A DNA stretch of 31,253 nt from IMG/VR virus record IMGVR_UViG_3300037222_000033, positions 1 to 31,253 of that record. One strand, written 5' to 3'. Made by a program: the position numbers and the translations under genes. The stretch's first letter is position 1. The number at the start of each line of letters is the position of its first letter. Below are positions 2,974-30,725 of the stretch, in pieces. The notes under the pieces are model-generated. The model searched no databases. It saw only the letters and a program-made list of their open reading frames with translations, and was not told the origin of the DNA. This DNA is from a virus.

Positions 2974-3336
2974 TTAAAATCCGTATATGTAGAATGTGGG
3001 AGTTGAACCGCCGCCGCCGCCGCTAATTCCATTGACCGCAATGCGCGAAAGTTGGCCGTAAATATCGTTGGCGTAAGCGCCCGTCGCGCCAGCGTCGGCG
3101 ATCTTTTTGATCTGCCCATAGATATCGCCGTTGTACGTTCCGGCCGCGCCGACCTGATCCGCGATACGTTTCAGTTGGCTGTATTTGTCACCGCTATAAC
3201 CAGAAGCCGCGGCGCCGACCTTGTCGGCAATGCGGTAGATCTGCCCATAGATATCATGCGGGTATGTATCGGGAGCACCGGCATTATCGGCGATCTGCAA
3301 TAGCATTCCATAGACGTCATTGGTGTACGTTGGCAT
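2974..3336 (-). CDS. Tandem-repeat protein with five DIYGQI-x3-IAD units
   Basis: 120 residues made almost entirely of five repeats of about 20-22 residues. Each has the form Y-x-x-D-I-Y-G-Q-I-x-R/K-I-A-D-x-V/x-G-A. Repeat cores start near residues 4, 26, 48, 69 and 89. A Gly-rich linker (SGGGGGS) and a short FYIYGF tail follow. The start ATG shares one base with the stop of the head-tail connector gene. Each unit could be an amphipathic helix plus turn, so the protein may form a solenoid or short fibre or act as a chaperone. No known family is recognised. The genome position argues for a structural or assembly role. Confidence 0.75.
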   Translation of the reverse strand: MPTYTNDVYGMLLQIADNAGAPDTYPHDIYGQIYRIADKVGAAASGYSGDKYSQLKRIADQVGAAGTYNGDIYGQIKKIADAGATGAYANDIYGQLSRIAVNGISGGGGGSTPTFYIYGF

Positions 3337-3968
3337 CAGATTAGCGGCGGGCGGTAATTATCAAGGATATCGGTAATCGAAGGATCCATGTTACCCGCCT
3401 CGGTCCCCGTAGCGATCCACCAACTCTGCTCCAGAACTCCTGGAATATTCTGCTGTTTCAAATTCGGATCGCGTCCCTTGGAAGCGAAGCGACGCGTCAC
3501 CATTCGAATAATGGCGTCTTCAACGTCAACCGGTATCGTTGCGTAACCGGCCGAATAGACAATAGTCAGCGGGAGCGGATGCCAGTAGACCGATAATCCG
3601 GATGCATCCAGGCGCGTTAATTGCCCATTCGTTTTATCGACCAGATAATCGGTATTTTCGACAAGCAGGGTGCTGTCTTCGGTAACGTTCGTGCTGCTGG
3701 CAATCAGAGGCCACCGCGCGAGCTGAAGTACCTTGACGCCGCCGCGGACCATTCGATTAGGATGATCGGCAAAGAACTGCTCGGAAAGTGTTTCGATCGC
3801 AAAGGTACGGTTGCAATACTGCATCGCAGCCAATGACGCGCTGCTGATATAGCGAGCAAGGATAGAATCGCTGGCACCGTCCTTGACGCCAAGTTCGTCC
3901 TTAACGTCGGAGAGTTCGGTCAGGTCATAACTTGTCGCTGCAATCGTAACGGTTAGGATCGATTGCAT
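3336..3968 (-). CDS. Head-tail connector protein, gp6-like (phage_connect_1 type)
   Basis: 210 residues, matching the usual length of HK97 gp6/SPP1 gp15-type adaptors that sit under the portal and join head to tail. Landmarks are: an N-terminal helix region with DVKDELGVKDGASDSIL; a helical ISSASLAAMQYCNRTF segment; a middle strand ARWPLIASSTNVTED; the block TDYLVDKTNGQLTRLD; and then VYSAGYATIPVDVEDAIIRM, the classic conserved motif of this family. A C-terminal ASKGRDPNLKQQNIPG segment also fits. An AGGATC site nine bases before the ATG lies inside the preceding small gene. Confidence in the family is high. Confidence 0.88.
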   Translation of the reverse strand: MQSILTVTIAATSYDLTELSDVKDELGVKDGASDSILARYISSASLAAMQYCNRTFAIETLSEQFFADHPNRMVRGGVKVLQLARWPLIASSTNVTEDSTLLVENTDYLVDKTNGQLTRLDASGLSVYWHPLPLTIVYSAGYATIPVDVEDAIIRMVTRRFASKGRDPNLKQQNIPGVLEQSWWIATGTEAGNMDPSITDILDNYRPPLI

Positions 3969-4067
3969 TTAGAATGATCCTGATCCGCTGTCGTGCGGCT
4001 CGTCTTCAATCCAGAGAAAAAGACCGAAGATAGTGACAGCAAAGCAGATCTCAAAAATATGAGACAT
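3969..4067 (-). CDS. Possible 32-residue single-span membrane peptide
   Basis: An ATG at 4067 opens 32 codons that end directly before the connector ATG, and it begins one base after the stop of the upstream gene. It therefore fills the space between two genes exactly. The first 19 residues are hydrophobic (IFEICFAVTIFGLFLWI) and look like one transmembrane helix, followed by an acidic and Ser/Gly tail. An ATAGG sits very close to the start, which is a weak ribosome site. Placement argues for a real gene. It could equally be spacer sequence that is open by chance. Confidence 0.45.
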   Translation of the reverse strand: MSHIFEICFAVTIFGLFLWIEDEPHDSGSGSF

Positions 4068-4068
4068 C

Positions 4069-4269
4069 CTATTTCAGTTTCAGCGTTGGCTTGTTCTGAT
4101 TAGTCGATTTCACCACGGGTTCTTCCGGCGCAATCTCGGCCTTTTCTTCGGGCTCATCCGATCGTTTCTGCATCTTGATGGATTGCAGCAATTCCCGCAA
4201 ATACCGCGCGCGCGGTGATTCGTATTCGGCATCGCCCTTGGCGAGATAATCTTTTCCTGCTTGCATCAT
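4069..4269 (-). CDS. Small charged protein of unknown function
   Basis: 66 residues starting at the ATG at 4269, which overlaps the stop of the methyltransferase-glycosyltransferase gene as ATGA. A GTG three codons upstream is less likely. The N-terminal half is predicted helical (YLAKGDAEYESPRARYLREL) and the C-terminal half is a low-complexity, Glu/Pro/Lys-rich tail. No family is recognised. Tight coupling to the glycosyltransferase gene suggests joint expression in the head operon. Confidence 0.65.
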   Translation of the reverse strand: MMQAGKDYLAKGDAEYESPRARYLRELLQSIKMQKRSDEPEEKAEIAPEEPVVKSTNQNKPTLKLK

Positions 4270-5453
4270 TTCCAGCACTCTTCCGGGACACCGTTCTGTT
4301 GAAAATCAGTCATTGACTGATAGTGAACATTCAAATTGATGTCGGGCCATCGCGCCATAAGCTCGGCATGGCCAATTGCAACGCGATTTGCGAGATGGAG
4401 CGAATTGCCGGCGGTTTCCCACTTGCGCCAAAATTCGATGTCTTCATCGATATGACCTTCATTCCAGTCTAGATCTGGAGACGGCACGGACTGAAACCAC
4501 GGCTTCGCCATCTTCTTAAGCGCCGCTGTTCTGATCAGCGTAAGCCCGAAGTGCGCGGTTGAAACCTGAGAGGTATCACCTTCGAATCGAGTGCGCGGAA
4601 TGGTCGGCGCATTCTTTTCCGCTGAATCGTCTCGAACCGTGAACAGTGCCGTATTTAGATGGCGCGATGATTGGATGGGCGCTAGTGCATCAATGTCAGG
4701 GTAAAGGCACATTAGCTGCATGAGATGCGCCAGATGGCGGGGCAGGAAAACAGAATCGTAATCGATAGTAAGGATCGCGTCCGGATCATCTTCCTCGATG
4801 ATCCGTTCAAATACCTTGGTCATCGACTGGCCCCAGAAGGCACCGCCGTGTTTTCGCAACTTCACATGACAAGGAAGGCACGCTTCCATGCAACTGAAAA
4901 AATTATCGGTGAAAGTAAGTCTCGGCATGCTCATCGCGCCGGAGACATTGATCTCCGGCATATGAGGCTTGTACGCCTCCAGGTTCAGCGAGATCGGATA
5001 AGCAGCGCAGTCCTCGATTTCCGAAACCCATGGCCGGATTAGAACTAGACCCTGGCCGGCGAGTAATGCCCGCAATTTGTCGCGATCGAACATCGCCTTG
5101 TGGTAATCGTTCTGGTCGACCTGGCCGCCCATCATGTACATTTCATGAGGCTGCGCTTTGCCGTTCAGATAATCCTCCGCAATCGTTTTGAAATCTGGAA
5201 CGGCGATCTTGAGTTTGCCGCCCTTCTTGAGAGCGCGAACCCAATCCTTCAGGACCGCTTCTACCTGGCGGTGCGGGAAATGTTCGAGGACGTGAGAGGC
5301 AACAATTTCGTCAACCGATCCATCGGCGTAGGGCAGCGGATATATCTCAGACCCGTAATCTCTGCCGAGCGGAATGAAACTGGGGCGCGCAATTTCGCCT
5401 GCGCCTAAATCAAGTTTAATCTCAAATTTCGGAAGCGTAGCTTCGATATGCAT
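4266..5453 (-). CDS. Fused SAM-dependent methyltransferase and GT-A glycosyltransferase
   Basis: 395 residues in two modules. Residues 1-165 are a class I methyltransferase: motif I is LDLGAGE (14-20), then SVDEIVASHVLEHFPH (46-61) and LKKGGKLKIAVPDF (75-88). This is the layout of small methyltransferases found in glycan clusters. Residues about 175-395 resemble a GT-A glycosyltransferase, with ILTIDYDSVF (227-236) holding a DXD-type metal site (D231, D233), followed by the HFGLTLIRTAALKKM acceptor-side region and a C-terminal DEDIEFWRKW. AAGGG lies seven bases before the ATG. It sits between capsid and connector genes, where it could modify a virion protein or sugar. Substrate is unknown. 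Confidence 0.78.
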   Translation of the reverse strand: MHIEATLPKFEIKLDLGAGEIARPSFIPLGRDYGSEIYPLPYADGSVDEIVASHVLEHFPHRQVEAVLKDWVRALKKGGKLKIAVPDFKTIAEDYLNGKAQPHEMYMMGGQVDQNDYHKAMFDRDKLRALLAGQGLVLIRPWVSEIEDCAAYPISLNLEAYKPHMPEINVSGAMSMPRLTFTDNFFSCMEACLPCHVKLRKHGGAFWGQSMTKVFERIIEEDDPDAILTIDYDSVFLPRHLAHLMQLMCLYPDIDALAPIQSSRHLNTALFTVRDDSAEKNAPTIPRTRFEGDTSQVSTAHFGLTLIRTAALKKMAKPWFQSVPSPDLDWNEGHIDEDIEFWRKWETAGNSLHLANRVAIGHAELMARWPDINLNVHYQSMTDFQQNGVPEECWK

Positions 5454-6366: not shown

Positions 6367-7692
6367 TTACGGAGCGACCAGCGAAACCAACGGGCCGGCA
6401 TTCGTGTTATCACCGAAATCATGGGCCGATATGTCAAATCGCTCTGTCCCGAGTAACCCGATCTGATCGTTCTCGAAATACCGATGGTCCGAACGCTTGA
6501 TCGTCACGCCGCGGCGTTCGCCCATCATCGCCGCCTTGGTCAGGTCGCCGAAGAAAAGCATCGCCTTGGTGGTCTGCGACGCTGCGGTGATCGGAAGTTT
6601 CTGAGCGATCGTCACATCGAAGCCGAGCAGCCGCTTCTGGATGCCCTCCGAGAGGATATCGAGACGGTTGCCACCAGCGCCGGCCAAGAGACTCGCAACG
6701 CAGGAATAGAAACCCTGTTGCGACATATACCATTTGGCACCACCGAACGCGTACTGCGGCAGCGTACCCATCAATCCCGTGAGATCGCCCAGCGTCAGCA
6801 ACGCGAAGGTATTGTGGCCAGTAGCCGCAGTGAACTTCGATGCGTTGTGATTGCCATCGGTCGCAAGCACGGTAAGACCGCGAATACCGCCGTAGGGGCT
6901 AGACCCGTCGCCGTTGAAACCACAGTCGTCTTCTTTCGAAGCGAAGGCGTAGGCCATTTCGCCGACAAGCCAGTCAGCGATCGCGACTACGGCATCCTGT
7001 TCGATTTCAGTCGACATGCGGGTCAACACGGCACACTTCTTAGCGGTCAGGTTGACGTTATCCCAGGAAGCCTGAGACTCGGTCACGCCCTGATTTTCAC
7101 CAGTGAAGAACGCAGTCAGGCCACCAGTCCGACGCGGCCAATTGAGCGTATCGGAACCCATCGGGACGACCTGGCATTCCTGCCGGAAGACGCCGAATTG
7201 TTCACGAAGCACGATGATGTTGGCCATCAGCTCTTCGGGAACGAGGTAGCCGCCAGCGCTGTCAACGCCTTCACCCTGTGCCTTCTGAATGCCAATGCCG
7301 CGCGCCTTGCACCAATCCTGCGCTTCTGGATTGTCCATCAGGGTCGCTTTGAACCACATGCCGGCCGTGTACGCCTGATCGACGGCACGATACATTTGAC
7401 CCTTGATCTCGCGATCCTGGAAGTTCTTCACCGTGCTGAACAGCTTGTGTGCGCTGGGAGGAGCGAACGGCGTCAGACGGTCCTGACCGGGGACGGCGGT
7501 CGCGAGGTTACGCGCGATCGTCTCGGCCTCTTCAACGCGCCCGAGGCGCGCAGTAACTTCGACGAACTTTTCCTTAAGTGCGTCGTAGATATCCTGCTTG
7601 AAGCCCTCATCCTCGGACTTGCCGGCCATTTTCTCGATTTCGTCAGCCAGCGCAGAGAGCTGCTGTTTGACTTCATGTTTCTTGGTCGCCAT
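6367..7692 (-). CDS. Major capsid protein, HK97 fold, with N-terminal delta domain
   Basis: 441 residues. Residues 1-90 are helical and charged (KQQLSALADEIEKMAGKSED, then VTARLGRVEEAE), as expected of the HK97 delta or scaffolding domain that the prohead protease removes. The mature part starts near residue 91-110 and contains the family hallmarks GEGVDSAGGYLVPEEL (140-155), WPRRTGGLTAFFTGE, the long spine helix region, and the C-terminal ERRGVTIKRSDHRYFENDQI and FDISAHDF segments. GGAAAC lies eight bases before the ATG. The 132-base leader contains a 7-bp inverted repeat (7712-7718 with 7754-7760). A paralogue without the delta domain is encoded at 10216-11277. Confidence 0.93.
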   Translation of the reverse strand: MATKKHEVKQQLSALADEIEKMAGKSEDEGFKQDIYDALKEKFVEVTARLGRVEEAETIARNLATAVPGQDRLTPFAPPSAHKLFSTVKNFQDREIKGQMYRAVDQAYTAGMWFKATLMDNPEAQDWCKARGIGIQKAQGEGVDSAGGYLVPEELMANIIVLREQFGVFRQECQVVPMGSDTLNWPRRTGGLTAFFTGENQGVTESQASWDNVNLTAKKCAVLTRMSTEIEQDAVVAIADWLVGEMAYAFASKEDDCGFNGDGSSPYGGIRGLTVLATDGNHNASKFTAATGHNTFALLTLGDLTGLMGTLPQYAFGGAKWYMSQQGFYSCVASLLAGAGGNRLDILSEGIQKRLLGFDVTIAQKLPITAASQTTKAMLFFGDLTKAAMMGERRGVTIKRSDHRYFENDQIGLLGTERFDISAHDFGDNTNAGPLVSLVAP

Positions 7693-7824
7693 CGCTATGT
7701 TTCCATAAATGTCGCTGGAGCGCTGCCCGGGCGCGTGAAAATGGGCGGTATCGCCAGCGACGCGATGCGCGGCCCGACTCCCGGTTGCTCCAGGTGTCGG
7801 TCGGTAGAAATTCAGAAAGATATT

Positions 7825-9153
7825 TTAGATTTGGACGGAAGCCCTTAGCGCTTTCGCCTCTGCGAGGCGTTGTTCGCGCACGGATTCCGCACTGAGAACC
7901 GTAACGGTCGGGACAGGATCAACGTCCGGCTCTACGTCATTGTCGCCATCAGGATCGGCAGCCGCGTTGCTGGCCAGAACATCCTTGATGCATTCTGTTG
8001 CGGACGCGTGATGGTCCATTGCCTTCTGCAGCAACGCCTCGTTGGCGTTGCTGATCTTTCGCCCAGCCTTATCCACTGGCGCGATAATAATTTCTGCGGT
8101 TACGTCTTTTTGTTCGGTGATATCTTTTTGCTCGTATTCGTCGGCGATTTCCTTCGCCAACTCGATGACATCAACGGGCGCTTCAGTCTGGGCGAGGCGC
8201 ACCTGAGCGGCCGTAACGCCAGATTTAATCGCCTTTAGCTCACCGTCGACGATATCGGCGAATGGCAGTTTATAGCTGCTTCGCAGCACGGGATTCGCGG
8301 CGTCGTGAATAAGGAAGCCGCGAGCGGCCTTGGCGCCATCTGGGCAATCGCCATCGAATCCGGCATCATCGAGAACGCGTTTCGCCGCGGCGGCGCCGTC
8401 CCAAATCTCGGCATCGGCTACCGGTAAATCATCGGCGGCGCCGACCTTCCAGTCAGCCGCTTCGGATTTCGCTAGATATTTCTGGCGCGTGGTGCGCGGG
8501 GTCTTGGCCTGGCGGAACGTTTCCTCAAGCACGTTGCGCGGGATCAGCACCTTGCCTTCGCCGTCCAAAATTCGCTCCGCCCATTCCGAGATCGGACCCG
8601 TATCAATGCCGGCTGATCGCGCATCGATCAGAGCATTTTGATTGCAAGGAATTGGGCACAAACTGACCTCGAGTAAAATTTGCTTGATAAAATCCAAGCC
8701 CGATGGCCGCTTCTTGTCCTTGGAGAATTCCCATTCAGTCGGGATGAAGCCGACCGAGACCGCATTTAGGAATTTGCCGCGAACCATTTTTGCAAGCGTA
8801 GCAGCAAACGGATAAATATCTTCCGTTACGAATTCGAGATCGCCCTTCAGTTTGCCGGCGATAATTCCCAAGTTTTCCCATCGCCCAATGGGTGGCATAG
8901 AACTATCGTGGCACCAGAGGCCGACTCCGTTCTTTTCTTCGAAGTCTTTAAGATTTGTCCATCCAGATTGTTTGATGAGATCTCCGGAAAGATCTATGCT
9001 CTCGTCGCTGCATGTAAACCGAAAGACGTTCGGATTTGCGCCGTCGACCTGAGCTGGATCGCCAGGCATCGCCCGCAAAATACGGCAATCGGGTTGTGCG
9101 CCATCCTTGGCGGCAATCCTGAACGCATCTGCAGTCAAGAGTTCTATCGGCAT
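7825..9153 (-). CDS. HK97-family prohead protease with a long C-terminal extension
   Basis: 442 residues, about twice the length of a minimal protease. Residues 1-185 hold the herpesvirus-type serine protease fold: the GLWCHD segment gives the catalytic His82, and NAVSVGFIP gives Ser133. EVSLCPIPCNQNALI is the conserved closing strand. Residues about 235-340 contain a second module (LPVADAEIWDG, AGFDGDCPDGAKAARGF, then SYKLPFADIVDGELKAI) that I associate with longer phage protease proteins, and the C-terminal 110 residues are acidic and helical like a scaffold. It probably cleaves delta domains and itself during head maturation. The start codon is 11 bases after the HNH gene stop. Confidence 0.88.
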   Translation of the reverse strand: MPIELLTADAFRIAAKDGAQPDCRILRAMPGDPAQVDGANPNVFRFTCSDESIDLSGDLIKQSGWTNLKDFEEKNGVGLWCHDSSMPPIGRWENLGIIAGKLKGDLEFVTEDIYPFAATLAKMVRGKFLNAVSVGFIPTEWEFSKDKKRPSGLDFIKQILLEVSLCPIPCNQNALIDARSAGIDTGPISEWAERILDGEGKVLIPRNVLEETFRQAKTPRTTRQKYLAKSEAADWKVGAADDLPVADAEIWDGAAAAKRVLDDAGFDGDCPDGAKAARGFLIHDAANPVLRSSYKLPFADIVDGELKAIKSGVTAAQVRLAQTEAPVDVIELAKEIADEYEQKDITEQKDVTAEIIIAPVDKAGRKISNANEALLQKAMDHHASATECIKDVLASNAAADPDGDNDVEPDVDPVPTVTVLSAESVREQRLAEAKALRASVQI

Positions 9154-9164
9154 TGAAACCTCGT

Positions 9165-10088
9165 TCAGTCTATCGGTGCGCCTAGCGCGGCTAGGCGGGC
9201 GCGCAGCCGATCAATGAGAATGTCTTTTTGGTGGTGTGTGAGCCAGCGATTGACTTTAGTCGCCGAATGGCGATTGCGACCGGCTTCGGATTTTTCGCCA
9301 ACACTTTTCTCGTCGTGACAGACGGCGCATAGCACCTGAAGATTAGCTAGCTTCGTTTGTCCGCCACGCATCATTGGTATGATGTGGTCAATCTGCCATG
9401 TTTTTGGTGGCGCAAAAAAATCGAGCGGGACAGCACAATTCTGGCAGGATGACCCGGATCGCTCAAACAGAAACGCTCTTAGAAATTTTCCAGAAGCGCC
9501 GCGCGATGCATATTCAGCGTCTGGATCGGCCAACATTTTAGCTCGGCCTGTATTTAGCCGCGCCGACTTGCCGAGATATTTCTGAAGTACCCCAATGTGA
9601 TGCCCGCAAAGCGTGTTTCGCGCGTAGTCACCCTTGCGGGTAAGCAGCGTCTTGTGTGCAAGATATTGTCGGCCGCGGCTAGATTGAAGGATGGTTCGAC
9701 AGGCCATCGTCTCATTGCATTCTGGCCAACAACATTTTATTTGATGAAGGCCGAATGCATCGGTGCATTCTCTCGAGCAAAATGTGCTCTTCTTCAACTG
9801 GCTTCGCCGCCGTGTTACGGGATTACCGCATTGATGGCAGGGCGCACTTACATGCGTCCTAAGTTCTACCGCCTCACAACATGCCTCTGAGCACAGCCAC
9901 TTGCCTGCTGTCGGATGCGCTCTCTTCGGGTTTGTTTTTCGGATTAATCTATTTCTCCGGCGATAGTGCAGTCTATTGCATTCGTCGCAGGGGACGACTT
10001 CTCCGGTTTTTGGTCGGCTTCCGACCTTCCGCGCGATTGCGGGGATGCTGTCAAACAGATCAAAAAGGGGTAATGTATTTTTAGCCAT
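9165..10088 (-). CDS. HNH endonuclease with N-terminal zinc clusters, homing-type insert
   Basis: 307 residues. Three Cys clusters (CDEC with CSEAC, CHQC with CSREC, and CCWPEC) in the first 150 residues look like treble-clef DNA-binding fingers. The C-terminal third holds the HNH nuclease: CQNC, then WQIDHIIPMMRGG, then NLQVLCAVCHDEK, with zinc-binding CxxC pairs around the catalytic His. GGAGG lies about nine bases before the ATG. It interrupts the head gene order between a capsid-fold gene and the protease, as free-standing homing endonucleases often do. The 127 bases before it (10089-10215) hold no gene that I can see. Confidence 0.85.
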   Translation of the reverse strand: MAKNTLPLFDLFDSIPAIARKVGSRPKTGEVVPCDECNRLHYRRRNRLIRKTNPKRAHPTAGKWLCSEACCEAVELRTHVSAPCHQCGNPVTRRRSQLKKSTFCSRECTDAFGLHQIKCCWPECNETMACRTILQSSRGRQYLAHKTLLTRKGDYARNTLCGHHIGVLQKYLGKSARLNTGRAKMLADPDAEYASRGASGKFLRAFLFERSGSSCQNCAVPLDFFAPPKTWQIDHIIPMMRGGQTKLANLQVLCAVCHDEKSVGEKSEAGRNRHSATKVNRWLTHHQKDILIDRLRARLAALGAPID

Positions 10089-10215
10089 TGTCTCGCGCCT
10101 CCAGCGCAGATGATGGTTAGGGTTGGCGCGGTGTTACAAGCACTGCGTCAACCCGCTAATTTTACACTTTCTCCCGTTAAAATACTAGAAGTTTCCAGTT
10201 ACCGGCATCCCAAAT

Positions 10216-11277
10216 TTACGGCGCGACCAACGCGGCGAGCGGCCCGAAATTGTTGGAATCTCCAAGCCCATGCACGACTGCATGGAATCGCTCGGTTCCG
10301 AGGACGGCGATCTCGTCCTGATCGAGATAGCGATCCGCCGAACGCGCCAGGGTCAGACCGCGGCGCTGCCCGAGCGCCCCGCCCTTATACATGTCACCGA
10401 AGGCGAGCATCGTGGCGCCGGAAAGCGTCGTACTGATCAGCGGAAGTTTCTGAGTAAGGATGACGGGGAAGCCCTGGAAGTAGGGTGTCATCACCCCATC
10501 GAGTTCTGCCATGGGCAGATAGCCGCCGCCAGCGATGCGGATGAGGGTCTGAGCAAGACAGGTCTGAGAACAATACCATGCCGCATTCGGGATCGCGGCG
10601 GCTGTTACCGACGCCATCAGACTGCCGAGATCATTCGAATCGAGCGTCAAAAATGTATTGTGGCCGGTGGCAGCAACGACCTTTGCCTTGGCATGATTGC
10701 CATCGAGCACGATGGATCCGATGCCGCGCATCGTTCCGTACTTCGAAGTCCCGTCGCCATTGAAGGCGCAATCGTCTTCCTGAGCTGCGAATGCGTAGCC
10801 GATTTCGTTCGCTACAAAATCAACGATGTCCGAGATCGCATCTTCTTCAAGCTCGCTCGATATCCTGATGAGCGAAGCGATCTTCTTGGCCGTAAGATTG
10901 ACCTTATCGAGAGTGACGGCGGTCTCTACGTTAACGCCAGCGCTGTTATTACCTCCAACGAAGAACGCGCTGGCGCCATCTAGGCGCCGCGGAACATCGG
11001 TACTATCAGACGCCATCGGAATGATGCGGGCGCGACGACGGAAGGCGCCGTAAGTATCGCGAATATCCAAGATCGCGTTCGAAAGTTCGTTCGGAACCAG
11101 GAAGCCGCCGCTGGAGTCGATACCTTCACCGGTGGCCTTTGTGATCGCCACGTTATTCGATTTGCACCACGTCAGCGCTTTTTCGTTATGATAGATCGTA
11201 GCAAGGATCCATTGACCGGCGCGCTGATATCGCGCCTCGATCTCTGGACCACGCCCCGGAAACGCGCGATGCCTCAT
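10216..11277 (-). CDS. Second HK97-fold capsid protein, lacking the delta domain
   Basis: 353 residues, clearly homologous along its length to the 441-residue capsid protein at 6367-7692. Its residue n aligns with residue n+90 of that protein at the start, and nearly without gaps to a shared LVAP C terminus. Shared blocks include GEGIDSSGGFLVP, DKVNLTAKK, EEDISD-like and AAQEDDCAFNGDGTSKYG, and ATGHNTF. It lacks exactly the helical delta region. Its ATG overlaps the portal stop as ATGA, the position normally held by the protease or capsid gene. All conserved elements of the mature fold remain, so it does not look like a decaying copy. It may be a minor or vertex capsid protein. Confidence 0.9.
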   Translation of the reverse strand: MRHRAFPGRGPEIEARYQRAGQWILATIYHNEKALTWCKSNNVAITKATGEGIDSSGGFLVPNELSNAILDIRDTYGAFRRRARIIPMASDSTDVPRRLDGASAFFVGGNNSAGVNVETAVTLDKVNLTAKKIASLIRISSELEEDAISDIVDFVANEIGYAFAAQEDDCAFNGDGTSKYGTMRGIGSIVLDGNHAKAKVVAATGHNTFLTLDSNDLGSLMASVTAAAIPNAAWYCSQTCLAQTLIRIAGGGYLPMAELDGVMTPYFQGFPVILTQKLPLISTTLSGATMLAFGDMYKGGALGQRRGLTLARSADRYLDQDEIAVLGTERFHAVVHGLGDSNNFGPLAALVAP

Positions 11278-12662
11278 TCGTCATCTCCTGATTCTAATTC
11301 GGTCGCGCCAGTGTTCTGGACGAAATCGCTTTGTTCGCTCACGATGTACGGCGCTATCGCGGATTTCTGCGGAGCGGCCGGTGTACTTGGAGTATCCGGC
11401 AACGTTCCGCCATCGGGACGACCGGCACCGTCCGGCGCTGCGCCTGACATGTCCGAACCGCTGGGCGCAAGATTGACCGGCGTTAGAAGGACGTCGCCGC
11501 CCTCCAAAGGAGGATCGCCATTTTCGGCGCGGCATTCATTTTGTGTCGAGATGCCCGACATGATCTTGAGGCGCTGGTTATTGATCCGCGTCGCTTCCGC
11601 GGCACGAAGCAATCTGCGCTCGTCGAAATCAGCAACTAGACCTTCTTTATCCAGATTGAATTTCTGAACGAACTTCTGTTCCCACGCGTCTAGATCAGGC
11701 ATGATCGTGGTATTGACGTATTGCTGATCGGCGTCGTCAACCTTGAGCCTCGACATCTCGCCCTTGATGCCGAGCTTGTAGAGCGGCATATCAAACCAGC
11801 GCGCAATGTCGCCTATCGAATATTCACGCTGCGCTATGAATTCCAGATCAACCGAGCTAAGCTGCGTCGCCTGCCATTTCAGTCCCTCTTCAAGGATCGC
11901 AGTTTTTCCGGCGTTGTTAATGCCGGATCTGAGCTGTTCCCATTGCGTTCGCAATCGGGTTGCGGCGTCGAGAGATAGAAGTTTGTCCGTCTGCAGCACG
12001 CCACTCGGACGCGCTCCGTTATTCATGAATCGTGCGGCTTGCTGTTCGAAGCCCATCGCTAGACCGATCGAGTCTCGCGCGATCGAGATCAGAGAAAGGC
12101 CCATCAGCATATTGAAGCCGATATTCCGAAGATGAAAAATATCCTCTTCCGGAATCATCAGTGGTTGCGTTTTCAGGATGGCATTCAAAAAGATGCCCTG
12201 ACGCGTTACCGAATAGAAGATTTCGCCGCCCGGCGCCTCGTAAAGGATTACAAGATCCGGATTGATCGGAATCAGCGCGGTCGGATTTCCCCGCCCATCC
12301 CGCATGATGACCGCAAACGCGTTGCCGCGAAGCAAATACGCTCCGTGCATCTGGCGAGCCCATTCGGTCCAGTCTTGCCACTGATTTGGGCGTTTGAATA
12401 ATTTCGCGACCGGATGATTCGTGATCGGCTTATCGGCGCGCGCAGAATTCTCTCTCATCAGCCGCGGCGAACAACGCGCAACATCCTTCGACCTAATCGA
12501 GATACAAGCAAAGACCGTCGAAACACTGACGGCGGTTGTCTGATTGACGGCAAGTCCAGTTGCGGACTTCGTTCCACCGAGCAACGGATATAACGTGGAA
12601 TTGCCGGTAGCTTTTTCGACCGTCCCGCCAAATACGCGGCGGCCCCAGTCGATCAAACCCAT
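11274..12662 (-). CDS. Portal protein, HK97 family
   Basis: 462 residues. The N terminus (GLIDWGRRVFGG) and the block NQTTAVSVSTVFACISIRSK match HK97-type portals, as do the middle segments NPDLVILYEAPGG, FHLRNIGFNMLMGLSLI and FMNNGARPSGVL, and the stem region EEGLKWQATQLSSVDLEF with AQREYSIGDIARWFDMPLYK. The dodecameric portal is the channel for DNA packaging and the docking site for terminase and connector. The C-terminal 60 residues are Pro/Gly/Ser-rich and probably disordered. AAGGAAA precedes the ATG. It begins 11 bases after the terminase stop and overlaps the next capsid gene by 4 nt. Confidence 0.93.
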   Translation of the reverse strand: MGLIDWGRRVFGGTVEKATGNSTLYPLLGGTKSATGLAVNQTTAVSVSTVFACISIRSKDVARCSPRLMRENSARADKPITNHPVAKLFKRPNQWQDWTEWARQMHGAYLLRGNAFAVIMRDGRGNPTALIPINPDLVILYEAPGGEIFYSVTRQGIFLNAILKTQPLMIPEEDIFHLRNIGFNMLMGLSLISIARDSIGLAMGFEQQAARFMNNGARPSGVLQTDKLLSLDAATRLRTQWEQLRSGINNAGKTAILEEGLKWQATQLSSVDLEFIAQREYSIGDIARWFDMPLYKLGIKGEMSRLKVDDADQQYVNTTIMPDLDAWEQKFVQKFNLDKEGLVADFDERRLLRAAEATRINNQRLKIMSGISTQNECRAENGDPPLEGGDVLLTPVNLAPSGSDMSGAAPDGAGRPDGGTLPDTPSTPAAPQKSAIAPYIVSEQSDFVQNTGATELESGDDE

Positions 12663-12673
12663 AAAGAATTTCC

Positions 12674-14554
12674 TTAGACGACTAGAATCTCTCTAGTCTC
12701 ATATACTGAGGCGTCGGACCCAAATTCGGCGATTGCCGCACCCGTCGACATCGCTATCGTTACGAGACCGTCAATTCGTCCGCGTGAGCGTTTTTTATCG
12801 AATGCCCTGTTCTTCTGACCGTCTGCAATCAGAAGGGCATTCGCCGCGCAAGAGTAGGTCACGGGCGACCGCTCGATGGTGATGCCGTTGTTTAGAATTC
12901 GATCCTCGAGTCGCTCAACGGAGCGCGGCATACATAGCCGCTCGATCGGTTGCCCGTTCTGATCCAACTCTTTGTAGAAAATAACTCGCGTACCCTGACC
13001 ATGCGAAACTAGTTTAAGACCTTGGCCCCGATCAGTGTCCGGACCTTCCCAGAGCCAGACCGCGAAACCGTTCGTCTCGCAAGCCTTCATGAAGTCGCCC
13101 ATGCCGGCCGGATCGAATGCTAGAAACTGAACATCGAACTCGCTGCAGATCTCGGCGACCTTGGCTGCGATATAAGTCTTGTCGATCACGGCACCGGTGA
13201 CTGCTGTCAGATATCCGTCGGCTTCCCATTGCACATAAGGCGCGTTATCGGACGTCGCTCGATCGGCGAGTCCATCCTTCGTCGTCCAGTACCAGGTCTT
13301 GGCCCAGAGATGCTTGCTGTCGTCAATCCAAACTGCTGTTAGCGCTGTCAGATCGTTCTTCTGTGATAAATCGATCGATAGCCAGCATTTGCATTTCTTC
13401 AGTGCTGGCAGATCAAGGTCGCCCTGAACGGCCGACCATGCTTCTTCCGCAATCCAGAAGTCCACTGAGCCTAGCGGGATTCCGAAGAAGAGACGTTTGA
13501 CGGACATCGCCGTCGATATTTTCCATCTTGCCGTATTGACTTCGCCGCGGATATTTTCGACCGGGAAAGTAATATTAAGCGCGGGAAGCGCCTTAGACCA
13601 GCACGCCTCGTTATCGAAAACGGTTTCTCGGTCGGCCTTGTCGACGCGGGCGATGAAGGCAAAAGCCTCATCGTCCCTAATCTCTCCCCTCGCTACCTTC
13701 TGATAAAATTCCGAATACTCTGTGCCAACGATCTGCGTTGACGCCGGCGTGTTTGTGCCAAGCAACATCAATGCGTCGCCCGACATTTTAGCGATTGCCC
13801 GCATCCACGTCTCGATCGACGCGTTAGTTTTCATCTCGTGGATTTCATCAGCCGCAACGAGTATCGGCTTAGGTCCGGAGATCGCCTCGCCATTAGCCAG
13901 AGACTGGAAAACAGAATTAGTATCTGGATGCTCAATCTTGAAGGCATTATCCAGAATTCCGCGGATGACTACTTGGCCGCGGCTTTCTAGCGTGTCACCA
14001 TCTTCCGGATCGGAGCCCGGTATAGGCGCGCGGCACATCGCCGCCGCATCCTTGAACAAGACATTCGCGGTCGCCTTATCCTGGCCGATCGCGTAGACCT
14101 TGGCGCGCTGCACGCCGTAATAGCCCATCATGTACAGGCCGATGGCGGCCATCAATGGCGATTTGGCTTGACCCTTTCCGGTCTCAAACCAGCCGGAGCG
14201 AAACCGCATCCGGCCGGAGTCCTTACGCCAACCGAACAGCGAACCCACGCAAAACGTATGCCATGGCAAAAGATTGAAGGGCTGCCCAACCTTTGCACCC
14301 TCAGTAATCGATAGGACTGCCGGGAAGAAACCGAAGGCATGTTCGGCTTTCTCTGGGCACCAGTGAAGGCCGCGCGCCGCGCCGTCTACCAAATCCTTAA
14401 GATGGCGCTCTGCGGCATGCCGGACTATCTCGCCGGAGACAATCTGTCCTTTGACGACATCACGCGCCCAGCGCGTGGTCGGATCACTTGGTAACCGACT
14501 TGAGGTATCCACCGCCGATGAGCGACGGTTTTTGCCTCTGGACTTTTCCGCCAT
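12674..14554 (-). CDS. terL: Terminase large subunit
   Basis: 626 residues, with the ATPase at the N terminus and the nuclease at the C terminus. The Walker A variant ETGKGQAKS is at 124-132, Walker B ILVAADEIHE at 231-240, and LLGTNTP near 265 fits the coupling motif. The RNase H-like nuclease has its first acidic residue in SIDLSQKND (Asp395), the second in FLAFDPAGMGDF, and a third in RGRIDGLVTIAMS near the C terminus. It translocates DNA into the prohead and cuts the genome. The ATG lies inside the small-subunit gene, with a 71-nt overlap, implying coupled translation. Confidence 0.94.
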   Translation of the reverse strand: MAEKSRGKNRRSSAVDTSSRLPSDPTTRWARDVVKGQIVSGEIVRHAAERHLKDLVDGAARGLHWCPEKAEHAFGFFPAVLSITEGAKVGQPFNLLPWHTFCVGSLFGWRKDSGRMRFRSGWFETGKGQAKSPLMAAIGLYMMGYYGVQRAKVYAIGQDKATANVLFKDAAAMCRAPIPGSDPEDGDTLESRGQVVIRGILDNAFKIEHPDTNSVFQSLANGEAISGPKPILVAADEIHEMKTNASIETWMRAIAKMSGDALMLLGTNTPASTQIVGTEYSEFYQKVARGEIRDDEAFAFIARVDKADRETVFDNEACWSKALPALNITFPVENIRGEVNTARWKISTAMSVKRLFFGIPLGSVDFWIAEEAWSAVQGDLDLPALKKCKCWLSIDLSQKNDLTALTAVWIDDSKHLWAKTWYWTTKDGLADRATSDNAPYVQWEADGYLTAVTGAVIDKTYIAAKVAEICSEFDVQFLAFDPAGMGDFMKACETNGFAVWLWEGPDTDRGQGLKLVSHGQGTRVIFYKELDQNGQPIERLCMPRSVERLEDRILNNGITIERSPVTYSCAANALLIADGQKNRAFDKKRSRGRIDGLVTIAMSTGAAIAEFGSDASVYETREILVV

Positions 14555-14984
14555 TGTTGCGTCGTCGCGGTGTGATGGTCAGCTCCGCTTCAGCGGCTGA
14601 CGCCATCGCATTCGCATCCTTTAATACTGTGAACCACGGATTATAGGCGGGCTGCTTTTTGCCCTTGCGCGGGAACACCGCGCCTTCTTCCGCGACGTGG
14701 CGCATTGCGATCTCATATAGAACATAGCAATCTATCAGCCGCTTAATCTGGCGTTCATTAGCGTTCGCCAGTTTCTCGGAACTTCGAAGCTCGCCGACGA
14801 TGACCCGCCATTGCTGGCGCGCCAACTCCTGATCTAGTTCATCAGTAAATTGCGTAGACCAATCCGGCTCGGTAATACCATCCACGATCGACAATGGAAC
14901 CGGCGCCTTGCGTGGCTCCAGTGGAGACACCTTATCTTTTGGTTTGCGGCCGGCGCCGATACGCTTCCCGCCATGCATCGACAT
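14484..14984 (-). CDS. terS: Terminase small subunit, P27 family
   Basis: 166 residues from the ATG at 14984. A second ATG two codons on is equally possible. It begins with the basic motif GGKRIGAGRKPKDK, typical of P27/Terminase_4 small subunits, followed by a helical core (WRVIVGELRSSEKLANANER then IDCYVLYEIAMRHVAEE) and the late block YNPWFTVLKDANAMASAAEAELTITP, which is diagnostic for the family. It recognises the packaging site and recruits the large subunit. Only a distant AGGA (about 13 bases upstream) is available as a ribosome site. Confidence 0.87.
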   Translation of the reverse strand: MSMHGGKRIGAGRKPKDKVSPLEPRKAPVPLSIVDGITEPDWSTQFTDELDQELARQQWRVIVGELRSSEKLANANERQIKRLIDCYVLYEIAMRHVAEEGAVFPRKGKKQPAYNPWFTVLKDANAMASAAEAELTITPRRRNNGGKVQRQKPSLIGGGYLKSVTK

Positions 14985-15022
14985 CAGATTTGAATTGTTC
15001 CTCAAAATCAAGAAATCAAAAT

Positions 15023-18548: not shown

Positions 18549-18585
18549 TGATTTCTCCCTAAGCTGCTACCACCATGTCAGCCGG
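18325..18585. repeat. Duplicated gene 3' ends (23 bases, two mismatches)
   Basis: The copies are at 18325-18347 and 18563-18585, both reading GCTGCTACCACC at the left and CAGCCGG at the right on the plus strand. Each copy encodes the last residues of a different gene on the minus strand, the second being the NusG-like protein. It suggests a past recombination at a gene boundary. Confidence 0.6.
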
Positions 18586-19149
18586 TAGGCTCGTCCGGAT
18601 CATCCCCAATAATATCTCAATTCTACCCTTGCTGTCGATTTTGTTGATAGTCGCAATGAGGCCAGCATAGGCGCCGCCATCTTGGTCTACGCGTACCTTG
18701 TCGCCGCGTTTCCACGCCGAGCCGCGGCGCCCTCCAACCTCCTTGAGCCATATCTGATGCTCCTGCAATTGGCGTTTGAATACGGCCAGCACGGCGATAT
18801 GCGGCAGTTGAACTGGATTTCCCAATACATCTCGCATGAAGGCGCGAACGCCGCGGATTTCTTCGATCTCGCCGTAGTCGCCAATTCCAATCGTTCTGAG
18901 GAAACCATAACCTGGGAACATCGGTTTTGCGATCACTCTCGTTATCTTATGACCATTTTTTCCGATGCGTCCGGTCTTGATGCGTTTTCGGATCACCGGA
19001 ACGAACATCTCTAATCCCAATTTGTGCAGGCGCCAGACCGTCATCAGATCCTGCTGTGGTTCGGTCAACATCACGAACCACGGCGATTCCATTGGAGACG
19101 GAACGGGCTTTGGCTCGATGAGCGCCTCGCCTAGATTAGATGCTCGCAT
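18559..19149 (-). CDS. NusG/RfaH-like transcription antitermination factor
   Basis: 196 residues. An NGN domain covers about residues 20-125: WFVMLTEPQQDLMTVWRLHK, then the core strand FVPVIRKRI, VIAKPMFPGYGFLR (the F-P-G-Y-x-F motif) and GVRAFMRDVLGNP. A KOW domain follows (WKRGDKVRVDQDGGAYAGLI then IDSKGRIEILLG). Such proteins bind RNA polymerase and reduce pausing and termination, the specialised ones at particular sites. GGGAGAA precedes the ATG at 19149. Its first residues, MRASNLG, are shared with the Mrr-like nuclease at 21794. It lies between early and late genes, so a role in late expression is a natural inference. Confidence 0.85.
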   Translation of the reverse strand: MRASNLGEALIEPKPVPSPMESPWFVMLTEPQQDLMTVWRLHKLGLEMFVPVIRKRIKTGRIGKNGHKITRVIAKPMFPGYGFLRTIGIGDYGEIEEIRGVRAFMRDVLGNPVQLPHIAVLAVFKRQLQEHQIWLKEVGGRRGSAWKRGDKVRVDQDGGAYAGLIATINKIDSKGRIEILLGMIRTSLPADMVVAA

Positions 19150-19150
19150 T
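19127..19150. repeat. 24-base repeat, copy 1 (shared gene junction with the Mrr-like cassette)
   Basis: 19127-19150 is identical to 21772-21795. It spans the end of one gene (C terminus KNASI) and the start of the next (MRASNLG), which overlap by 14 nt. The same junction occurs in both cassettes. Confidence 0.75.
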
Positions 19151-19444
19151 CTTTTCTCCCTTGTATTCGTGCAGTTCACCGAGAGATAACGGCGGCAGCG
19201 CATCCCAGAGTCTAACTTCCTCGGTGTTCATTATCTGGGCGAGCACACGATTCCGTTTCGTGTTTGGCCGAAGCGGCCTAGACAATCCAATGGGTGCCAC
19301 TAGGATTGCGTGACAGCCGACAACATCTGATATCGCAACGCCGCTGATACCTGTATTTGGCGCAGTCTGCGCTATAGCCGCAACGGGCATAACGGTCACT
19401 AGGGGCGCGATGCCGATGAATTGTAATAACGATCTGCGGTTCAT
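19136..19444 (-). CDS. Small secreted or membrane-anchored protein with twin-arginine-like signal
   Basis: 102 residues. The N terminus (MNRRSLLQFIGIAPLVTV) is a signal sequence with an N-R-R-S-L-L motif resembling the Tat consensus, followed by a hydrophobic core and an A-I-A cleavage-like site near residue 25. The mature part is short and has no recognised fold. It starts one base after the upstream stop and ends KNASI, overlapping the NusG-like gene by 14 nt. A second protein with the same layout occurs at 21781-22077 before the Mrr-like nuclease. Confidence 0.68.
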   Translation of the reverse strand: MNRRSLLQFIGIAPLVTVMPVAAIAQTAPNTGISGVAISDVVGCHAILVAPIGLSRPLRPNTKRNRVLAQIMNTEEVRLWDALPPLSLGELHEYKGEKNASI

Positions 19445-20207: not shown

Positions 20208-21794
20208 CTATTGATCGCCAACCGCCACCAATTCAATTCCTGCCGCGAAAGCGTCGGCGGTGGCGGCGGACGTAAATCCTGACGACGACAGGATCAGGGC
20301 GATTGGTTCAATACCGTGCTTGGCTTCGAATGTGGATCGCGTTCCAATCATTTCCCTGACGACGGACGGACCTACTTTGGCGGTCCAGTGCTTGGCTTGC
20401 CCAATGGCAAACTTTCCGTTCGAATTATTGACGGCTAGAATGTCAATCCCGCCATCGCCGACCTTGTCAATAATCTCGTAGCCGCGCCCCTCCATCAGTT
20501 TTTCGCAAAGTCTTTCAAACTGGAACCAATTTAAGCCATCTAAAAGCATAACTTGCTTGCTTAATTCGATGACATCAAACAATGAGCGCGATGCAGTGCG
20601 GCTTCTATATCGCACCAATCCGCCGTCCGTCGCCTTTCCTGCGATGTGCGCACGGACCCATGTCTTTCCAGATGGAAATTCCGTAATACCGTGCAGCGTC
20701 GCTATCGCTTTTTGTTTTGCCGACGCGGAATGACCATCGCCTAATACCCTAAAATGAGATCGGATAAAATGCGGCGACACACTCCATATTTTGGTATCCG
20801 GATTCGCGGCGGCCGTCACCTTTTCGCGGTTGTATTTGCAGCGCGGCAGATAAATTATTTTATCGATCTTCTTCCCGTCGCGGCCGGTATGTCTTCTCAC
20901 GCGCGGAGCACCAAGTCTGAACGCGTTTTCGCGGTTCTCCACGACCCAAAAATCCCTTAAGATCGCGGCGCTTAAGAAATAAATGGCGCTAAATTCGTCT
21001 TCGTCAAAATTTGATATCCACTGCACGGAGCGCTGCTCACGTACCGAAAGTTCGAAATAACTTCTAGTCATAGGATCTTGGACAGAAAATCTATTTCTGA
21101 TGGCATCAAGACCGTCCGTAATGATTTCCCACTTAAACTTTTCCTGCGATACCTTAACCCGACATATCAGCCGGGCGTTGCCATCGGCATCTCGCCAAGA
21201 GAAATAAACGGTGTCTCGACGCTCGGAAACTTCAACGCCGGCAAAATCTCCTATTGAGAATTCAACCACGGCACCATCAGGAACGGTCGATTGCCTCGCG
21301 GCAACACCCTCCGTTAATAACATCTCCGCCAACCGATCGTGGCTGATCCTTTTGGCAATGGGTAAGGTGACGGAGAAATCGGGAGGATTGTCCCATTTCA
21401 TGCCGACTTCACGACAGAACGACGCGGCTTCGGCGTCGTTGTCTATATCAATCAGATTCCAATCAGCCGGTAGAGAGAATGCAGCATGCCCGCTTGGAGT
21501 ATCTTTGGCATGACCGAATAGAGGACATTGGCGATCAAGGATGGAATTTTTTCTCAATTCGTTGCGTTCTTGGTCAATTTTTTCACGCTCCATCCGCAAA
21601 TGATGACATCTGATGCGCGGGTCAATTTCCTCTTTTCCATCTTTTTTTCTATTGAGATATTTTAGCTTTTCCCAATCGGTGATCCCAGGCGCCGAATCGA
21701 AAAGCTCCAGCGCGCGACGCTCGATTTCAGGACTGGTCCACGGATCTCCTGGCTTATATGGAGCGACGCCGTCGCCTAGATTAGATGCTCGCAT
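20208..21794 (-). CDS. Mrr-like restriction endonuclease domain protein with a long unknown N-terminal region
   Basis: 528 residues. The C-terminal 105 residues are a PD-(D/E)XK nuclease of the Mrr_cat type: FERLCEKLMEGRGYEI (426 on), the acidic site GDGGID (446-451), and the QAK catalytic triplet (466-468) followed by a helix with VVREMIGTRS. The first 420 residues match nothing I know. They contain patches such as VYFSWRDADGNARLICRVKV and HGITEFPSGKTWVRAHIAG. Such nucleases usually cut modified or foreign DNA, and here it could attack host DNA or a rival phage. It shares its MRASNLG start and upstream junction with the NusG-like gene. Confidence 0.8.
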   Translation of the reverse strand: MRASNLGDGVAPYKPGDPWTSPEIERRALELFDSAPGITDWEKLKYLNRKKDGKEEIDPRIRCHHLRMEREKIDQERNELRKNSILDRQCPLFGHAKDTPSGHAAFSLPADWNLIDIDNDAEAASFCREVGMKWDNPPDFSVTLPIAKRISHDRLAEMLLTEGVAARQSTVPDGAVVEFSIGDFAGVEVSERRDTVYFSWRDADGNARLICRVKVSQEKFKWEIITDGLDAIRNRFSVQDPMTRSYFELSVREQRSVQWISNFDEDEFSAIYFLSAAILRDFWVVENRENAFRLGAPRVRRHTGRDGKKIDKIIYLPRCKYNREKVTAAANPDTKIWSVSPHFIRSHFRVLGDGHSASAKQKAIATLHGITEFPSGKTWVRAHIAGKATDGGLVRYRSRTASRSLFDVIELSKQVMLLDGLNWFQFERLCEKLMEGRGYEIIDKVGDGGIDILAVNNSNGKFAIGQAKHWTAKVGPSVVREMIGTRSTFEAKHGIEPIALILSSSGFTSAATADAFAAGIELVAVGDQ

Positions 21795-29228: not shown

Positions 29229-29623
29229 GCCGACATCTCCGCTGTATTCCGCACGGCCTGCGCAAACATCTCGCGTAACGCGTTCTTTGACATTTCCGGA
29301 ATGCGCGGGAGTTGGTTGCGATAGATCGGCGCCGTTCTGCTCGTGCCAAACGCTACGGTTATGTTAATGGATGGCGTCTTGCCCGCGCGGCGTCTATCCT
29401 GTTTCCGTTTCTCGCGTGCCCTGTCATTGACGCGCATCGCGGCCAGTTCGGCGGCGGTATGCATCACAACGTCAATATTTCGGCGAGTACAGCATGTCAG
29501 GACGCTTTGCTTAGATGTCCCGATAATCGCGCCGATTTCGGACGCGGTTAATCCGCTGACCGCGAGGCTGCACAATTGAGTGCGCCTTTCGTCCGTCCAG
29601 AAATTCCGACTGCTATTGTTCAT
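29222..29623 (-). CDS. GcrA-like helix-turn-helix protein
   Basis: 133 residues from the ATG at 29623, whose start overlaps the DnaA-domain gene stop as ATGA. Residues about 7-50 (FWTDERRTQLCSLAVSGLTA, SEIGAIIGTSKQSVLTCC) match the N-terminal HTH of GcrA, including the leading W-T-D-E-R. The body is basic (REKRKQDRRRAGKTPSIN) and lacks the GcrA C-terminal Cys/His region. It is probably a DNA-binding regulator. It lies two genes after gcrA. Confidence 0.75.
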   Translation of the reverse strand: MNNSSRNFWTDERRTQLCSLAVSGLTASEIGAIIGTSKQSVLTCCTRRNIDVVMHTAAELAAMRVNDRAREKRKQDRRRAGKTPSINITVAFGTSRTAPIYRNQLPRIPEMSKNALREMFAQAVRNTAEMSAC

Positions 29624-29970
29624 GCCGCGCATCCGAGTTCGGTTCTGATAGAGGCGAGCAATTGCCTCGTGCCGCCGTCTTCCCGTGCAAGCCGTTCGAT
29701 TTTTCGAATGCCTGATAAAACGGTCGTATGATCGCGATCCCCGAACGCGCGCCCGATGGCGGGATAGGATTTAAGCGTGAGGTGGCGAGCGAGATACATC
29801 GCGACGTGGCGCGGCATGATCACCTCACCGGGCCGCCGGTCGGAGTTGATGTCGTTCACCGTGATGCCAGCAAACCGTCCGCAAACCGCGCTTTGGATAT
29901 CGCGAATCGTTGGCGCGGGCTTCGACTCCGCATCCATTTCGCAAACGATATGGAACCACGGGGCCTTCAT
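29620..29970 (-). CDS. Stand-alone DnaA domain IV protein
   Basis: 116 residues from the ATG at 29970, which overlaps the gcrA stop as ATGA. Residues about 25-105 carry the complete DnaA C-terminal DNA-binding domain: a first helix (IQSAVCGRFAGITVNDINSD), then RRPGEVIMPRHVAMYLARHL, and the signature block IGRAFGDRDHTTVLSGIRKI. No AAA+ part is present. Domain IV binds DnaA boxes by itself, so this protein could compete with host DnaA at the origin or steer it to a phage site. It ends GCAA, with the next gene overlapped. Confidence 0.92.
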   Translation of the reverse strand: MKAPWFHIVCEMDAESKPAPTIRDIQSAVCGRFAGITVNDINSDRRPGEVIMPRHVAMYLARHLTLKSYPAIGRAFGDRDHTTVLSGIRKIERLAREDGGTRQLLASIRTELGCAA

Positions 29971-30560
29971 GCCGCGATTCCCTTGGTCGCAGCGCGTTCG
30001 GATCCGGTGCCGGGTCCGCTCGTAAGATCGTGATGGCCACCACAATAAGGCGACTTAACATCAACGCCAGCACGTCCATATGTGAAACGCGGATGGCCAC
30101 AAAAACGATATTCAGATGGATGGCCCACGCCATATATATATTTACAATCGCCCGCCTGTAATTCGGCGAACGTCACGAGGCGAGGCACGATATCCACGCT
30201 GCGGAGTTCTGCGATCTCCGCGGACATGGTGGATTGGATGACGCGAGTGCCGCCGTTGCCGCCATTGGCGATCTTGTAGATCGCGTGGTGGTCGCCCTGG
30301 CGCTTGCGATCGCGTGACGCTCTCGGTGCCTTGGCCTTCTTTTCGGGCTTCGGTTGTTTTTTGAATGACGGTTCACTGAGTCCGAGGCGGTGAATTTTCC
30401 CGATCACGGCGTTGCGTGTAAGTCCATCTCCCAAGGAGCCAGCAATCTGCGTCGCCGAAAGTCCACGATGCCATAGACGTTCAAGTTCGGCCGAACGTTC
30501 TGGGGGCCAAGGCATGTTATTGCGAACGCGTTCGATCGTAACTGTTTCTGTTTCAGACAT
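29967..30560 (-). CDS. gcrA: GcrA-family cell cycle regulator
   Basis: 197 residues from the ATG at 30560, with AAGGA seven bases upstream. Residues about 18-65 form the family HTH: MPWPPERSAELERLWHRGLS, then QIAGSLGDGLTRNAVIGKIH. The RNAVIGKxHRLGLS block is diagnostic. The middle is basic and disordered. The C-terminal part ends CKYIYGVGHPSEYRFCGHPR, then PYCGGHH, the Cys/His layout of the GcrA C terminus, which binds sigma-70. Host GcrA works with sigma-70 at promoters with GANTC methylation. A phage copy may redirect that system. It ends GIAA and overlaps the next gene by 4 nt. Confidence 0.92.
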   Translation of the reverse strand: MSETETVTIERVRNNMPWPPERSAELERLWHRGLSATQIAGSLGDGLTRNAVIGKIHRLGLSEPSFKKQPKPEKKAKAPRASRDRKRQGDHHAIYKIANGGNGGTRVIQSTMSAEIAELRSVDIVPRLVTFAELQAGDCKYIYGVGHPSEYRFCGHPRFTYGRAGVDVKSPYCGGHHDLTSGPGTGSERAATKGIAA

Positions 30561-30725
30561 TGCGATCCTTGATGTTGAGAGAAACGAGACGCGGTCGGGA
30601 ACAAAAACTATGCAGAGGTCGTCGACCATGAACGCAGAACACACCACTTCCAAAACGGAAACGCTGGCCGACTTTCTGAAAACCGATTCCTCTGCTAACC
30701 GATCGAAAGGTCCGTCCTGGTGAAC
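30561..30725. promoter_or_regulatory. Largest gap in the early operon, upstream of gcrA
   Basis: This 165-base space is the only sizeable break on the minus strand between 31253 and 17287. Every other pair overlaps or is separated by under 60 bases. A promoter for gcrA and the genes after it is therefore likely here. I could not find a -35/-10 pair that I trust. A short frame runs through it on the other strand (30632-30723). Confidence 0.4.
30632..30723 (+). CDS. Possible 30-residue plus-strand peptide
   Basis: A plus-strand ATG at 30632 opens a frame ending in TGA at 30723, just two bases from the stop of the convergent minus-strand gene. The sequence (NAEHTTSKTETLADFLKTDS) is polar and looks protein-like. 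AGAGG lies about ten bases upstream. It would be the only plus-strand gene in the window and lies within a gap that otherwise looks like a promoter. The length and support are weak. Confidence 0.25.

Follow-up and report, generated by a model that had tools for sequence, protein, structure and literature searches.

The linear virus record IMGVR_UViG_3300037222_000033 (31 kb; the window, that is, the whole stretch of DNA analyzed) encodes, on its minus strand, two capsid proteins within a single head operon. The operon order is small terminase subunit (TerS), large terminase subunit (TerL), portal, short capsid protein, HNH endonuclease, S78 protease, long capsid protein, a 176-aa protein, a methyltransferase-glycosyltransferase fusion and connector. 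The long protein (441 aa, positions 6367-7692), identified by profile matches as the major capsid protein, has a complete delta domain, while the short one (353 aa, 10216-11277) consists of a truncated scaffold region (residues 1-47) and an HK97-fold mature part (residues 48-353). An earlier note on this DNA had placed both open reading frames (ORFs) at these coordinates, leaving out the strand, and held that they share the mature fold and an LVAP end, which is borne out: the two proteins are 46% identical over 338 aa by BLASTP (E = 7e-106), both match PF05065 (Phage_capsid; 4e-42 and 5e-33) and TIGR01554, and LVAP ends both. As the note also had it, the short gene directly follows the portal gene (11274-12662; PF04860, 4.5e-79; TIGR01537), its start overlapping the portal stop as ATGA (11274-11277), and a Shine-Dalgarno-like AGGAG lies a few bases upstream (11285-11289). 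Left out of that note were the two genes that separate the capsid genes, an HNH endonuclease (9165-10088; PF01844) and an S78 prohead protease with a C-terminal extension (7825-9153; PF04586, 1e-4; phrog_80, 2e-18).

Scans of IMG/VR gave 13 and 80 loci with the two proteins as queries and 47 with an alignment of short proteins. At least 34 distinct contigs hold substantial parts of both capsid genes, with a few more holding fragments, and each of eight contigs of 54-98 kb has exactly two. One candidate contig with the pair belongs to IMG record 2927473223, the number of which suggests that it may be an isolate genome. Several paired contigs hold identical capsid proteins, leaving about 28 distinct lineages, and the gene order in paired contigs is portal, short, protease, long. 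All 28 full-length short proteins are intact and pass the curated cut-off of the HK97-type major capsid family profile; like members of the vertex-protein class, the short protein is a paralogue of its partner major capsid protein. The view that two retained capsid genes are uncommon gains limited support from INPHARED, where three queries met recognizable homologues in 186, 176 and 273 records, always at a single place per record.

The HNH gene is limited to the window and near-identical contigs, being missing from nearly all relatives, and other inserts occupy the same junctions elsewhere (a homing endonuclease in contig L019, an HNH gene in L109). The surroundings of the short gene are an insertion hot spot, with endonuclease or unknown inserts in L019, L109 and L032. 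Contig L005 is 99-100% identical to the window in the short, HNH and protease genes and only 89% in the long gene, which by sequence comparison puts a putative boundary of recombination after the protease gene and before the long gene. In L046 the portal and short genes seemed to be fused, but the open frame that joined them was spurious and lay in GC-rich DNA.

The scaffold region of the short protein was compared with HK97 gp5, the sequence of which was taken from its record. The HK97 cleavage site K103/S104 aligns at K137/A138 of the long protein and at K47/A48 of the short one (11134-11139; 51/52 in the short-only alignment). The phi12 capsid protein (CP) is cleaved before residue 129 (PMC8569155), and its residue 128 aligns with position 44 of the short profile. 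The predicted junction is strongly conserved, with K or R at P1 in 28/28 short proteins and A at P1' in 27/28, K-A in 31/31 long proteins and K/R-A in 7/7 single capsids. All 28 full-length short proteins begin at the same point, and their pro-regions span 44-48 aa versus 136-137 in the long proteins; in the window the lengths are 47 and 137 aa, the shorter pro-region being as expected of a penton protein. Predicted cleavage would leave mature chains of 301-307 aa for the short and 300-312 aa for the long proteins. An initial idea that the short protein is born mature, beginning at the mature N-terminus, was dropped as the HK97 and phi12 site alignment puts the junction about 47 residues in.

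The delta domain of HK97 is known from the Prohead I structure: its residues 2-66 build coiled-coil towers that are trimeric and surround the portal, with two towers to each hexon, and a helix-turn-strand made by residues 76-103 lies beneath every capsomer (PMC10275583). The long protein has a counterpart of both halves: a predicted coiled-coil tower half at residues 2-64 (7501-7689), which is absent from the short protein and marked by a heptad contrast, and a spoke half at residues ~90-137 (7282-7425) that runs up to the predicted junction. Weak AlphaFold models place helices at 2-23 and 33-64 (tower) and at 103-118 and 122-130 (spoke) in the long protein, and only a spoke-type pair (11-28 and 32-40), in a better-scored N-terminal part, in the short one. 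The basic pro-region of the short protein (residues 1-47, isoelectric point 10.2; 11137-11277) aligns with HK97 delta ~72-103, the helix-turn-strand spoke (PMC10275583). Since the short protein begins at about HK97 residue 66-76, its predicted architecture is a delta domain without the tower half that keeps the capsomer-binding spoke half and the cleavage junction. The earlier note had stated that exactly the delta domain is lacking; the missing part is an N-terminal stretch of about 90 residues comprising a predicted coiled coil and a linker, and some 47 residues of pro-region with the junction have been kept. Setting aside the very start of the short protein, the lowest agreement between short and long consensus (20%) falls at long residues 331-345, about HK97 273-286, in the A-domain. 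The E-loop of the short protein is poorly conserved (column conservation 0.50 vs 0.87), and neither protein keeps the HK97 crosslink residues K169, N356 and E363.

Both genes are under purifying selection, the median pairwise dN/dS being 0.25 in the short and 0.20 in the long gene among pairs with dS below 2, rough values as dS is partly saturated. The nonsynonymous distance (dN) of the short gene is 1.6 times that of the long gene. Codon bias of the short gene exceeds that of the portal gene in 20/29 comparisons and that of TerL in 8/8, and is weaker than that of the long gene in most. The short proteins form one clade (100/100) and so do the long ones (100/98). At consensus differences where single capsids have a clear state, that state is kept in 61 columns by the long protein and in 23 by the short one, which marks the short protein as the derived, specialized copy. 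Approximately unbiased tests on an origin of the short protein inside the phage clade were mixed (p=0.26 and 0.027). Distances between short proteins track those between long proteins (r=0.55) better than those between portals (r=0.26); in 61 pairs the portal is below 45% identical and the short protein at least 65%, the portal being often swapped. The earlier note had taken decay or absence of the short gene in relatives as a sign against its reading; instead the gene is kept in tens of contigs under purifying selection, which together with the intact ORFs rules out a pseudogene and supports two retained, functional capsid paralogues.

We infer that the two proteins divide the phage head between them, the short one serving as a dedicated subunit of the pentons (vertices) and the long one as the hexon subunit, with a probability of roughly 0.55; a vertex or minor capsid role, which the earlier note had offered, is the best reading of the short gene. 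Under this scenario, the short protein would form pentamers, held by their spokes, alongside the long one as the procapsid assembles. As the towers are trimers, a hexon could supply two, and the five chains of a penton could not form whole trimers; 11 of the 12 vertices would also not face the portal. The tower helix may therefore be missing because trimeric towers suit six subunits and not five. The S78 protease would then trim both capsid proteins to near-equal mature chains of ~306 and 304 aa. For the window proteins the calculated masses would be 32,091 Da for a short chain cut at K47 and 32,492 Da for a long chain cut at K137, versus 37,557 Da for the uncut short protein (37,426 Da once Met is removed). 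Addition to the head without proteolysis, as was earlier suggested, finds no support in a protein that retains the C-terminal scaffold half and the K/A junction. The uniform truncation, the conserved fold and junction, the divergence in the A-domain, and the linkage to the long protein and protease rather than to the swapped portal fit a division of labor of the gp24 and Ccm type.

Several points weigh against a dedicated penton subunit. HK97 itself makes pentons from its full-length protein, and the argument from trimers and five chains is our own reasoning. The more distantly related contigs L053-L060 have a single capsid gene each and manage without a short protein. Two members of the long clade, L026 and L040, have no short gene between portal and protease; L026 instead has a second truncated capsid gene at 6870-7931, downstream of the 176-aa gene, and L040 has none in the available sequence, its contig stopping before that downstream place. 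The HK97 register of the pro-region is approximate, the start of the short protein mapping between HK97 ~66 and ~76 and the junction falling at 47/48 or at 51/52 as aligner settings vary. The low scores of the fold models (pLDDT 63 and 58) put interface analysis beyond them, and pentamers cannot be read from them either. The short gene also adjoins the portal gene, overlapping it in some relatives, which could suit a low copy number or a portal-linked role.

The position of the gene thus raises the possibility of a low-copy subunit around the portal, coupled to portal translation by the ATGA overlap that the window has in common with its near relatives. That overlap is not general, however, and the short protein lacks the very delta half with which HK97 gp5 touches the portal (PMC10275583) and travels with the long protein and protease rather than with the portal, as the 61 pairs with swapped portals indicate, making a portal-vertex specialist very unlikely. 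Less improbable, though still unlikely, is that the short protein mixes into capsomers generally and fixes the T number or shape of the head. A pentamer-forming capsid homologue, Ccm, does redirect size and shape, turning prolate phi12 heads isometric (PMC8569155), and truncated homologues are also found in the satellite-like contigs L063 and L148. However, Ccm works by being the penton, so this explanation overlaps with a vertex role, and the short gene sits between portal and protease in a head operon that is the phage's own, with no second head size known.

The faster evolution of the short gene and its variable E-loop would also be expected of a regulator or assembly antagonist outside the virion, for example one that caps or chaperones the long protein, or that blocks a satellite or a competing phage. 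We consider this distinctly improbable as the full mature fold and cleavage junction are retained and codon bias is above that of portal in 20/29 comparisons and of TerL in 8/8, as expected for a structural protein. That recombination or duplication left the short gene behind as a relic now being lost might be argued from the single-capsid relatives and from the HNH and homing endonuclease inserts that mark a recombination-prone spot, but about 28 distinct full-length short proteins, down to ~52-56% identity, are all intact with dN/dS well below 1, and a relic is extremely unlikely. Encapsulins appear among the Foldseek matches, as do all HK97-fold proteins, and the model is weak; with the gene in a head operon and no cargo gene noticed near it, a separate self-assembling shell of the encapsulin kind is hardly credible.

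Truncated-scaffold capsid genes also occur in two small contigs. L148 (45-4280 of a 4.4 kb contig) has one at 3231-4280, its product starting MKQIRAFTG. The contig also encodes a RepA-like AAA_25 protein and small ORFs, with neither terminase nor portal or protease in view; it is satellite-like and possibly Ccm-like. L063 (1-4306) has TerL, two small ORFs, a truncated-scaffold capsid and an S78-like protease, with no portal or full-length capsid before the genes turn around, which suggests it is satellite-like or a remnant. The upstream helical ORFs of L063 and L148 have no detectable relationship to each other. In a reduced tree the short proteins and the truncated capsids of L026, L063 and L148 fall on one side of a 98/92 branch, although the latter three have long branches and attraction is possible. 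An independent origin of the L026 protein is not claimed: its identity is nearer single capsids (51%), but trees group it with the short proteins (79/92; 98/92 with L063 and L148). It may be, though we think it rather doubtful, that an old lineage of tower-less capsids acts as dedicated pentons, shared by phages for their own vertices and by satellite-like elements such as L063 and L148, which could capture or resize helper heads. In HK97-type phages a single scaffold-fused protein builds hexons and pentons. If our reading holds, a presumed penton copy that has lost nothing of its scaffold except the coiled coil facing the portal would split the roles of tower and spoke within delta, make questions of hexon versus penton and of portal symmetry mismatch testable by genetics, and bear on the origin of satellite proteins such as Ccm.

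The rest of the head operon comprises TerL (12674-14554, profile matches), TerS (14484-15011; PF05119) and a head-tail connector (3336-3968; PF05135, phrog_442). The methyltransferase-glycosyltransferase fusion (4266-5453) accompanies the capsid even in distant single-capsid relatives and might modify the capsid surface. Elsewhere, the window encodes a NusG-like protein and a protein with an Mrr-type restriction endonuclease domain (18562-19203 and 20211-21794). At 29623-30599 a gene for a GcrA-like protein (PF07750, 5e-26) adjoins one for a free DnaA C-terminal (DNA-binding) domain, a pair that suggests control of the host cell cycle or replication. GcrA is typical of alphaproteobacteria, and these two genes suggest an alphaproteobacterial host. 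Scans of genome contigs with the short and long alignments found no relative that would identify the host directly, and among annotated phages and plasmids there was no close match, all being below 60% identity.

Capsid homologues dedicated to pentons are known from T4 (gp24; PMC9958956, PMC3012670) and from one bacterial satellite (SaPIbov5 Ccm; PMC8569155). A search of the literature for a penton paralogue or a second major capsid gene in phages of the HK97 type yielded only T4-like and giant-phage cases, SaPI work and general reviews, weak evidence of absence given that subscription papers lay mostly outside its coverage. The window shares with HK97 the gene set of its portal_HK97/S78 module, the capsid-fused scaffold and the aligned cleavage junction, but HK97 has one capsid gene. 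The alphaproteobacterial RcGTA capsid is the closest solved sequence relative of both proteins (6tba/6tb9), though a distant one (E 1e-12 to 1e-14). Like the short protein, T4 gp24 has the HK97 fold, shares its genome with the major capsid protein of which it is a paralogue, and has a shorter pro-region (10 aa vs 65 in gp23); gp24-bypass mutations map to the gp23 A-domain (PMC9958956). Unlike the pair described here, with a scaffold fused to the capsid protein, 46% identity and a proposed vertex location, T4 has a separate scaffolding core and gp23 and gp24 are only ~20% identical (PMC9958956). Ccm is likewise an HK97-like capsid homologue with a shortened delta (87 aa vs 128 in phi12 CP), is cleaved at K87/Q88 and forms all pentamers (PMC8569155). 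However, Ccm is encoded by a satellite, alters the helper head and is only 24% identical to its partner (PMC8569155). With TerS, TerL, portal, protease, major capsid and connector all encoded, the window does not belong to the satellite-encoded elements that change helper capsid size, and the short gene lies in the phage's own operon.

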